Shown here: positions 58,968 through 61,948 of the stretch, piece after piece
Numbering within the stretch: the stretch's first letter is position 1
How the letters are laid out: every line of letters begins with the position of its first letter
Made by a program: the position numbers and the translations under genes
The notes under the pieces: generated by a model
Database searches by the model: none
Told to the model about the DNA's origin: nothing
Seen by the model: the letters and a program-made list of their open reading frames with translations, nothing else
Assembly: GCF_000003815.2 (NCBI RefSeq)
Contig: NC_049981.1
Coordinates: 27,117,785 to 27,181,784, forward strand
Direction of reading: 5' to 3'
Source: Branchiostoma floridae
Lineage: Eukaryota; Chordata; Leptocardii; Amphioxiformes; Branchiostomatidae
DNA length: 64,000 nucleotides

Positions 58968-58980
58968 ATTTCAGCTCATC

Positions 58981-59316
58981 GCCAAAAATAGTTACTCAAG
59001 CAACTGGATATGGTTTTGAAACGGTCAGACGTTTCGGAAAGAATCCACTTTCCTTCGTCAGTGACACTGAAGTGATCTGCAAGAAACAGGTCTTTTATAC
59101 CCTAACTATGAATGAAGACAATTTCAGATGTCCAATAGGAAAGGTTGTAAGACAATTCAGACTGAAGACAATTTGGATTCCAAAGAAAACAAAGCTAAGC
59201 CAAAGTCAAGCTGAAGACAATTTGGATTTCAAAGGATATCAAGGCTAAGACACAGTTAATGCAAATGAGTCAATTAGCTCCTGTTGTTTTAGTTACAGGA
59301 GCTAAAAGTTTTGTTG
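58981..59316 (+). repeat. PLE left inverted arm (336 bp)
   Basis: Reverse complement of 60708-61043, nearly perfect. It contains three related sub-repeats around GAAGACAATTT and a small palindrome TAGCTCCTGT / ACAGGAGCTA at the inner end. A poly-G run follows immediately inside. Confidence 0.93.
59004..59074 (-). ncRNA. Hammerhead-ribozyme-like motif in PLE left arm
   Basis: The same motif as in the right arm but on the minus strand, hence in the same sense as the RT-endonuclease and downstream of it. This is the copy that would lie in the element's own transcript. Confidence 0.5.
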
Positions 59317-60765
59317 GGGGGGGGGGGGTAGTGCTATGTCCCAAGTGCCGGAACGTTCCATACGTAGCCCCCCTTTTCTGTTGAGGGTGGGATTGTATAT
59401 TCTCTCATAATAGTCATATATGGCCTCTCTAACTCCCCGTTCAAACCAGCGGGCTTCACGGTCTAGGATGTCGGTAGATTGGAGGTTGAAGGAATGTCCT
59501 TGGTTGTGTTGTAGGTGGTTGAAAATAGCAGAAGAGTTGCCGTTGGCCTTCGGTTTGCAATGTTCTTGGTATCTTGCTTTTAGTGGACGACTAGTCTCAC
59601 CAATGTATGTGTTGTTACAGTTGGGTTCCTCGCATTTGAGTCTGTAGATTACATTGGCCTTAGTACCTTTCTGTGGTTTGTCTTTTGGATGTACCAGTTT
59701 GTGTCGGAGGGTTGAGTGAGGTTTGAAGTCAGTGGCGATGTTGAAGTTTTGGAAGATCCGTCTGAGTTTTTCCGAAACTCCTTGGACATAGGGGATGGTA
59801 ATGTTGGCTTTCTTTCTGTCGGTCAATGGTTTGCACTTGGCTGTTTTCTTTGAGTGGTCCGAGGGTTTGAGGGCTTTGTTGAAGGCCCAGTTTTGGTAGC
59901 CACATTTGTTCAATGCACTTCGGAGGTGTTTGTGTTCCTCTGTTTTGGCCTCAATGCTGTCTGCCCGGTGATACAAGGTTTTAATCACTGCCAGTTTGTG
60001 TTCCAAAGGGTGGTGAGAGTCAAAGGCCAGATATTAGTCAGTGTGCGTCGGTTTCCTGTACACTTCGAACTGAAGGCTGCCGTCCTTCTCTATGATAGTT
60101 TTGGTATCTAGGAAGGGGAGCATGTTGTCATGACTTGACTCCTGTGTGAACTTGATGTTCTTATCTACTTGGTTGATGTGGTCAAAGAACTCATCAGCTA
60201 CTCTCTGTTTTAGCTTGCAATAAGTGTCATCTACATAGCGGAACCAGTTGAGTGGGGGAGTGTCCTTGAAAGTACTGATAGCCTTCACTTCAAACTTTTC
60301 CATGTAGAGGTTTACAACAATGGGTGACACTGGTGATCCCATAGCACAGCCGTGCAGTTGTTGGTAGAACTGTCCTTTGAAAGAGAAATACGTACACCCT
60401 AGGCAAAGGTCTAGCAGTTTGCACAGTTGGTCTGGAGATACATGTAGCTCGGTTCTGTCTGTTAGTGTGTTGTCAGCCTCCAGGGCTTCCTTGACTACCG
60501 AGACTGCGTCCTTAGGAGGTATGCAAGTGAAAAGCGAACAGACATCGTAAGAAGTGATGATTTCATCTTCTTCTACCCGGAGATCTTTGATTTTGTCAAC
60601 GAAGTCTGCACTATTCTGAACGTGATGTTGAGACTTCCCCACTAAAGGTCCCAGGATCTTAGCTAGAAATTTTGCTAACTCGTACGTGACAGAACCTATG
60701 CTGGACACAACAAAACTTTTAGCTCCTGTAACTAAAACAACAGGAGCTAATTGACTCATTTGCAT
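59302..60765 (-). pseudogene. PLE reverse transcriptase plus GIY-YIG endonuclease, truncated, one nonsense codon
   Basis: One continuous minus-strand frame interrupted only by TAA at 60036-60034, just after YRKPTHTD. The sequence resumes in the same frame with YLAFDSHHPLEHKL, so this is probably a CAA-to-TAA change. RT motifs in order: VVSSIGSVTYELAKFLAKIL, TSYDVCSLFTCIP (catalytic Asp), GCAMGSPVSPIVVNLYMEKF, YVDD (catalytic pair), MLPFLDT. The endonuclease has VIYRLKC and NNTYIGETSRPLKARYQEH (GIY-YIG), then GVREAIY with a likely catalytic Glu. The true coding part starts at VVSS near 60708; residues before it are encoded by the inverted arm. The N-terminal RT region is absent. The final residues read into a poly-G/C tract at 59316-59329. 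Confidence 0.92.
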
Positions 60766-61043
60766 TAACTGTGTCTTAGCCTTGATATCCTTTGAAATCC
60801 AAATTGTCTTCAGCTTGACTTTGGCTTAGCTTTGTTTTCTTTGGAATCCAAATTGTCTTCAGTCTGAATTGTCTTACAACCTTTCCTATTGGACATCTGA
60901 AATTGTCTTCATTCATAGTTAGAGTATAAAAGACCTGTTTCTTGCAGATCACTTCAGTGTCACTGACGAAGGAAAGTGGATTCTTTCCGAAACGTCTGAC
61001 CGTTTCAAAACCATATCCAGTTGCTTGAGTAACTATTTTTGGC
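60708..61043 (-). repeat. PLE right inverted arm (336 bp)
   Basis: Reverse complement of 58981-59316. The inner end fuses directly to the RT coding sequence at VVSSIGSV. The outer end is followed by a 36-bp unique extension up to the target-site duplication. Confidence 0.93.
60950..61020 (+). ncRNA. Hammerhead-ribozyme-like motif in PLE right arm
   Basis: The + strand of this arm reads CTGACGA, then a hairpin GGAAAG-TGGATT-CTTTCC, then GAAACGTC. These are the two conserved core boxes of a hammerhead (CUGANGA and GAAA) around a 6-bp stem II. A short ACG/CGT stem III can form after GAAA. One unpaired A precedes stem II and stem I is weak, so activity is uncertain. PLE terminal repeats are known to carry minimal hammerheads. 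Alternatively, GACG/CGTC closes a simple long hairpin. Confidence 0.5.
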
Positions 61044-61334
61044 GTATCTTATTACCTGGATGTCTAACCTACATCGACGTATTTCAGCTCATCACTTTTG
61101 TGGGTAATTGCTTTGATTTTAGGATTTTCATTAGGATGCCATCCATAAGATCCAGTCAATGTCCTTAGCTAATTCAATGGACGAAGGGATCGGCCTTTCC
61201 AAATATTTGCCATTTACGCATTGTAAAACCATTGAGTATCATCAGGGGGCGTCCTTACCATTGCTGGCCTGTTTTCCAAACTTTTGCTGGGTGGTTTGCA
61301 ACAACGCCATGCTTATCAAATCATAATCCCTCAA

Positions 61335-61464: not shown

Positions 61465-61948
61465 CAGTCAAACCTGCCCGAGCGACCACCTCTTCTCAGC
61501 GACCACCTGGCCATTTCGACCGCTTTTTCTCGGTCCCGATTTATTTTCCCATTGACGTAAGCATTAAGCGACCTTTTCTCAACGACCACCTGGCCAACGC
61601 GACCGCGACCGGCCCAAATTGGGACCTATAACGACCGCATCATTTTCAAGATTGAGGTTTTCATCGATTTTTGATGATAATTAGCGCGATTTTGTGCCGA
61701 AATCGGCCAGCTTGCGTCGGATTTTGGGGTTTAACTTACAGTTTACAGTGTGCGTGTTGTATTTGACATTAAAGACCTCGCTTCTTTGCGTGCGTGCAGT
61801 GTGCTTGCTATTTGCCATTAAACACAACGGCAACCATTTATACTTTGCATCGGACATGTTTTGAGTCGATACTCTTCTCAGCGACCACCTGTCCAAATCG
61901 ACCGTTTTTTTCCGGTCCCCCGATGGTCGTCTTGGGCAGGTTTGACTG
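61465..61948 (-). mobile_element. Tigger-like MITE copy 2 (484 bp)
   Basis: Same ends (CAGTCAAACCTG / CAGGTTTGACTG) and TA flanks. The interior is the reverse complement of the 10.7-kb copy, including the block around GTTGGCCAGGTGGTC. It is inserted next to the LINE fragment at 61.34-61.46 kb. Confidence 0.7.

Follow-up and report, generated by a model that had tools for sequence, protein, structure and literature searches.

The window analysed here, a 64,000-nucleotide stretch of the Branchiostoma floridae genome (contig NC_049981.1, positions 27,117,785 to 27,181,784), harbors a 5'-truncated Penelope-like element (PLE) that lies on the minus strand and, together with its target-site duplications, occupies positions 58968-61093. 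The two 13-bp copies of the duplication, ATTTCAGCTCATC, are located at 58968-58980 and 61081-61093 and are the only occurrences of this sequence on the plus strand of the window. Read along the minus strand, the insertion consists of duplication, tail, inverted pLTR, truncated reverse transcriptase (RT), stop codon, endonuclease-like part, 3' UTR with a poly-C tract, sense pLTR and duplication. The sense (direct) pLTR (58981-59316, minus strand) lies 3' of the endonuclease-like part, and its outer end coincides with RNA start site A and carries no tail. Next to it, the C-terminal coding part and the start of the 3' UTR (59302-60033, minus strand) contain a GIY-YIG-like motif and end at the poly-C tract adjoining the pLTR. 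The lone in-frame stop, a TAA codon (60034-60036, minus strand), borders the RT, which is truncated on its 5' side (60034-60707, minus strand). At the inner junction of the two cDNAs (60707-60710, that is 60707/60708), marked by a 3-nt microhomology (TTG), the RT gives way to the second, short cDNA, which forms the inverted pLTR arm (60708-61043, plus strand). Adjoining this right arm only, a 36-nt tail (61045-61080, plus strand) spans RNA start sites A to B, its outer end being site B. The window element is an ordinary member of a known Penelope-like family, and all its parts belong to known PLE anatomy; both direct and inverted orders of the pLTRs are present in the family, as seen in the window and its sister copies. 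To the right of the element, a short direct repeat resembling CTTCTCAGCGACCACCTG is found in three copies (61492-61509, 61573-61592 and 61874-61891), perhaps another degraded repeat.

Most of these features had been recognised in the original prediction, which described 336-bp, near-identical inverted arms, a perfect 13-bp target duplication, a 36-bp terminal extension and a right arm joined straight to RT sequence, so that truncation and inverted-arm formation would share one junction; all of these were recovered at the positions given above. The arms at 58981-59316 and 60708-61043 are inverted copies with a single mismatch in 336 positions (59101 versus 60923). At this mismatch the right arm carries the letter present in 34 of the 35 long arms compared, the left arm of the window being the odd one. 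The boundaries had been called exact, and the termini could indeed be located, with an outer arm edge that is ambiguous by one base since position 58980 pairs with 61044 too.

At the coding level, the predicted RT was confirmed by a match of the minus-strand piece 60034-60825 to Pfam RVT_1 (E 5.9e-7). The single nonsense codon that had been noted is also real, and in the 11 sister copies covering its position a sense codon is found in all 11. The GIY-YIG motif claimed for this element stands in part. Its letters, VIYRLKC...TYIGETSRPLKARYQEH, can be read by eye in the window copy and are conserved with L074, a copy of a second PLE family; the Pfam search of the endonuclease-like part gave no match, and NCBIfam linked it to a group I intron endonuclease family below the cut-off (E 0.08). 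A sequence search of the PDB with this part produced no useful match, the best being a ribosomal protein at E 0.82, and a fold model built from a two-row alignment was poor (mean pLDDT 41.9). A GIY-YIG endonuclease domain at the C-terminus is therefore putative, as judged from the motif letters. The internal part of the window element shows a BLAST identity of about 97% to the long sister copies. Counted by substitutions alone it is at the level of the sisters in most bins, and the remaining difference consists of in-frame indels private to the window copy (+6, -12 and +9 bp, within 59317-60707). A foreign origin of the internal part was dropped on these grounds, and the window copy, given its own in-frame indels, may belong to a small sublineage.

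Two RNA start sites define the outer ends of the family. Site A corresponds to the pLTR end (...TTTTTGGCG, at times with an extra T or TA) and site B to A plus the 36-nt tail in the RNA (...CATCGACG or CATCGACGT), and the letters GRCG precede the start at both of them (GGCG and GACG). An ATG read by eye within the tail (MSNLHRR) is likely the start of the ORF. In a predicted local RNA fold both start sites are placed just 3' of small hairpins, with a stability not above that of shuffled sequences (z -0.74). The right arm also contains the letters CTGACGA ... GAAACGTC (60963-60996, plus strand), downstream of TATAAAAG at 60925-60932, which we take to be a hammerhead-like core. An Rfam search returned no hammerhead match up to E 1, and a sub-threshold group II intron match (E 0.13) was taken as chance. 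The idea that short arms end at the hammerhead cut was unsupported, the nearest two ending 17 and 23 nt away.

Sister copies were collected from one assembly of 513 Mb and 431 contigs in two samples. The first was obtained with the arm alone as query, hence without selection for tails; its 45 matches represent 36 loci including the window, and removal of L037, a repeat of L020 with the same duplication, left 35 distinct insertions. The second was obtained with the tail as query and yielded 40 full tail ends and 3 partial matches; 10 of the 40 tail ends were already in the first sample, and the remaining 30 were examined. Each DNA search scored the best 40 of about 2,000 candidates, so the 65 distinct insertions of the window element's family brought together in this way are near-identical, young copies only. 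Both ends of the element and a duplication were found in 23 of the 35 insertions of the first sample. Another six show a duplication yet lack the second cDNA (L012, L021, L034, L035, L038 and L018, the last lying in simple repeats), and six fall in neither class (L011, L016, L024, L032, L041 and L025, which is flanked on the left by a run of N). The corresponding counts in the second sample are 11/30 with both ends and a duplication, 10/30 with a duplication and no second cDNA (L049 and L070 being doubtful) and 9/30 with no duplication within about 2 kb. Pooling the samples, a duplication without a second cDNA occurs in 16/65 insertions (the doubtful L049 and L070 included), while a duplication of at least 9 bp is absent from 15/65 within the DNA examined, one of these being L025 with its run of N. 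Two-ended insertions therefore make up 34 of the 50 that bear a duplication. Far from the special snapshot of end formation that it had been thought to be, the window structure is the usual one in young insertions of this family, as shown by the 23/35 of the arm-only sample, and the search for relatives lacking its termini revealed that two-ended relatives share the same two outer ends.

The pairing of these ends follows a strict rule. All 34 insertions that carry a duplication and have element sequence on both sides pair an outer end at A with one at B, and no A/A or B/B pair was found among them. The first sample contributes 23/23 such pairs, a result with a probability of 1.2e-7 if A and B were equally likely and independent, and in the second sample the partner of the tail end is A in 11/11. 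To avoid a bias toward the expected partner, the left end was also set from the duplication alone and the sequence following it was typed only then; this classification gave complementary ends in 33/33, and L013, misplaced by the script at a wrong 18-mer, is A/B by direct reading and completes the 34. Some ends deviate from the site letters by 1-6 bases (among them those of L014, L026, L028, L042 and the one-ended L021). The complete arm that anchors each locus of the first sample ends at A in 17/23 cases and at B in 6/23 (two-sided p 0.035), and the cDNA that is longer or includes the coding piece starts at A in 18/23 and at B in 5/23, L033 switching side (p 0.011), which weakly suggests that A is the leading start on one RNA. 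Four tail-bearing insertions without a duplication within 2 kb (L044, L053, L067 and L069) carry an inverted piece of the pLTR that has its outer end within the pLTR itself, at positions 270, 204, 189 and 174, respectively, that is, at neither A nor B; these internal ends are possibly end deletions or a different start. A smaller inverted pLTR piece is present in L070. In L011, a tail lies at the right end and an inverted tail-bearing piece, 77% like the query, lies 0.6 kb to the left of the coding piece. It was not counted as a two-tailed insertion because the two share no duplication, and the inverted piece was taken as an older, separate copy.

Unlike the outer ends, the inner junctions are free. 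In 14 insertions the short arm breaks at pLTR positions 1, 6, 9, 20, 34, 66, 137, 139, 167, 187, 231, 306, 312 and 328 (the value of 187, for L028, was 112 in another analysis owing to an internal repeat), and the ends of the long cDNA are spread over the RT, the endonuclease and the 3' UTR. In L030 there are two long arms, both cDNAs reaching into the ORF. Since the short-arm breakpoints vary freely and both arms of L030 enter the ORF, the inverted pLTR is a second cDNA of free length and has no fixed structure, and the 336-nt arm length, no fixed terminus either, is where the second cDNA stopped in the window. As reported by script, junctions in the 14 insertions show either 0-1 base of overlap or fillers of at least 2 bases, several of the longer fillers being indels or mismatches relative to the window copy and thus not real. 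The TTG microhomology of the window was scored against L013 and L042, sister copies that continue upstream of the junction.

The sequence of the arms provides information about their origin. Across the first sample, arms of the same insertion differ at 17 of 4858 positions (0.35%), versus 0.78% between insertions. Two common polymorphisms agree between arms in 29/29 cells, including 4/4 in which the minor allele is present. In 22 insertions of this sample (L020 was left out because its short arm was mis-mapped), 12 non-consensus variants are common to both arms, 8 of which occur in no long arm among the 34 remaining insertions of sample 1; changes private to one arm are 8 in the long and 9 in the short arms. 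For the short arms of 5 of the 23 insertions (L017, L022, the window, L029 and L039), the nearest sequence is that of some other copy and not the partner long arm, the excess distance amounting to one or two long-arm-only changes in each. A single source RNA probably served as template for both arms, and for this reason the single arm mismatch of the window dates only the insertion; this mismatch is consistent with the recent insertion that had been suggested, within that limit. The shared private variants by themselves require one source locus, and two RNAs of one locus or gene conversion could also produce them.

At the target level, the joined flanks of 33 insertions reveal an empty site with two-fold symmetry, AAC-N13-GTT. 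On the 5' side of the duplication there is an A at -3 in 19/33, an A at -2 in 17/33 and a C at -1 in 18/33, and on the 3' side a G at 0 in 15/33, a T at +1 in 25/33 and a T at +2 in 20/33; the binomial tests of these positions assumed backgrounds of 0.2 or 0.3 and were uncorrected for the number of positions viewed. Target sites are 65% A+T overall in these insertions. Duplication lengths range from 11 to 16 bp, with 13 the commonest (21 of 34 rows, the L037 repeat being counted). Duplications of this kind, with both 3' ends extended, would imply 3' overhangs on both sides.

The reading that best accommodates these data, with a probability of about 0.75, is that the PLE inserts by target-primed reverse transcription in which a single staggered cut provides primers on both strands. 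The endonuclease would cut the two strands about 13 nt apart at a symmetric, AT-rich AAC-N13-GTT site to leave 3' overhangs, and each target 3' end would prime cDNA synthesis on the element RNA around the pLTR and the ORF start: one cDNA would begin at site A, the pLTR end, the other at site B, which lies 36 nt 3' of A. For the window insertion, the first cDNA would cover the pLTR, the 3' UTR, the endonuclease and part of the RT, and the second the tail and 336 nt of the pLTR before stopping. The cDNA ends would then be joined, with three bases of microhomology in this case, and the resulting insertion would have inverted pLTRs with a tail on only one of them, a truncated ORF and a 13-bp duplication. 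The strict one-tail pairing fits a scheme in which each target strand primes once and the start site used by one strand is denied to the other. There is slightly better than even reason to go further and propose that this symmetric two-strand reaction obliges the two 3' ends to use different RNA start sites; inverted pLTRs would then be its normal product, the tail would record strand and site, and the 36-nt spacing would reflect a single RNP whose two RT active sites work on one RNA. One RNA engaged by two RT sites would be the simplest cause of the pairing, and we infer accordingly that both cDNAs may be made at about the same time, on that RNA, by a dimer. The 16/65 insertions with a duplication and no second cDNA imply that dual priming is not obligatory or that the second cDNA can be lost. 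The 15/65 without a duplication, which could hide other outcomes and include the four with off-site inverted ends, count against dual priming.

Inverted arms in PLEs of the rotifer Adineta vaga have been explained otherwise, by self-priming, in which the nascent strand folds back to serve as its own, antisense, template. This proposal was based, in the available text of PMC3846280, on palindromes at inverted junctions, and the variants common to both arms of one insertion agree with it. Nevertheless, a tail present on one arm only means that this arm was not copied from the other, a situation repeated in 34/34 one-tail insertions; moreover, the outer ends sit at two fixed RNA sites, and the inner junctions vary and join the pLTR to ORF or UTR sequence (14 insertions and the window), all of which makes self-priming unlikely here. 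Priming from both strands could also take place on two RNAs held by a dimer, the A/B asymmetry then arising from an asymmetric dimer. The same terminal evidence (34/34 A/B) fits this arrangement, and a dimeric predicted model of the Anolis protein has been described (PMC11167929); it is a possible though rather doubtful variant of two-strand priming on one RNA, and the confidence given to the two overlaps. Copies in both orientations at several loci might instead suggest recombination or nested insertion of two independent PLEs in opposite orientation. This is very unlikely, since two insertions should leave two duplications and a random pairing of tails, but each of the 34 is flanked as a whole by a single duplication, and 8 of the shared arm variants occur in no other sampled insertion. 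The least credible explanation is a false palindrome created by the assembly. Only one assembly was available, inverted repeats are hard to assemble, and L020 and L037 look like one insertion represented twice; yet the 34 loci have differing breakpoints and duplications with one tail each, and private substitutions separate their arms.

A related mechanism is the twin priming of human L1, where two cDNAs from the two strands of one target are joined to give an inversion, the second priming being internal and occasional. Judging from the products, priming of both target strands on the element RNA, the hallmark of twin priming, would have taken place in 34 insertions of the window family. The family differs from L1 in its fixed second site, 36 nt away, and in the frequency of two-ended products (34/50 duplication-bearing insertions). 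The integration proposed here resembles twin priming with a fixed start-site pairing and disfavours the published self-priming guess. If true, coupled priming would set PLEs apart from LINEs, in which second priming on the RNA is occasional.

Several parts of this picture have counterparts in described PLEs. According to the available text of PMC3846280, Pen2a_Av and its relatives in A. vaga are Penelope-type PLEs with a GIY-YIG endonuclease which, like the window family, have a single ORF with RT and EN and both direct and inverted pLTRs; they also share target duplications (9 bp), an optional 31-bp tail on one inverted pLTR and 5'-truncated members, one of them with an in-frame stop and inverted pLTRs. 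Unlike the present reading, that text attributes the inverted arms to self-priming with an antisense strand as template and treats the tail as optional, and a strict one-tail pairing is not reported in it. In Anolis carolinensis, the PLE PAc cuts and extends both target strands, and two adjacent RT start sites bound its tail, later integration steps being left open (PMC11167929). The window family is alike in having a tail that corresponds to the stretch between two start sites, in the cutting and extension of both strands proposed here, in its AT-rich targets and, with respect to the PAc hammerhead at the pLTR/ORF junction, in its hammerhead-like letters. The two differ in that the PAc start sites are about 110 nt inside the ORF whereas those of the amphioxus family flank the putative start codon, and in the cleavage motif, ATT in PAc versus GTT on both strands in the window family (PMC11167929). 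No strand difference in start sites was seen for the Anolis enzyme in vitro, so that strict pairing is not predicted from it, and A-with-B coupling is unreported for PAc (PMC11167929). In the open PMC literature, covered through titles and abstract openings and with subscription journals thinly represented, no paper on PLE integration by twin priming was found; the one-tail rule may thus be in print elsewhere. As far as the available texts go, the origin of PLE inverted ends has been addressed by the self-priming suggested in 2013 (PMC3846280) and the two-site internal initiation shown in 2024 (PMC11167929). The strict one-tail rule, which is easily read from genomic sequence, adds support for a coupled priming of the two strands, and it can be checked in any PLE-bearing genome and in the existing in vitro system.

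Other PLE families are present in the genome, the RT search finding them at about 70%, 57% and 44% identity, and none was recognised in the DNA of the sister loci among the matches listed below 85% identity. L074, a member of the 57% family, is A/B with an exact duplication. Its arms measure 89 nt, a 32-nt tail is present on the left side only, and the ends bear a 14-bp direct repeat, 3 bases of which also belong to the right arm. A query with its arm and tail returned 40 tail ends and 4 partner arms among the matches listed, the partners having no tail. L081 and L082 pair A with B inside exact duplications of 13 and 15 bp; L079 is A/B with a 13-bp duplication containing 2 mismatches, read by eye where the script reported none; and L080 is A/B and has no duplication. 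L083/L084 shows a tail at one end, a 14-bp duplication and another end about 11-13 nt short of A, L075/L076 is one-ended with a 13-bp duplication, and L077/L078 could be placed in none of these classes. Exactly one tail is therefore found in 6/6 two-ended copies read, of which the five retrieved with the tail query could not have shown A/A. Two outward-pointing tails 9 kb apart (C4:29414844 and 29423849, 98% and 93% identity) were taken as separate copies. Two RT fragments of this family lie in opposite orientation within 1.6 kb (G000:C3:17454461-17456061) and may be a further insertion in which the two cDNAs extend into the ORF. A more distant RT, at 32% identity, shares an 895-aa open frame among four copies (G000:C1:26819144, C5:1147684, C13:3080524 and C12:17322633) and represents a different, perhaps young, RT family.
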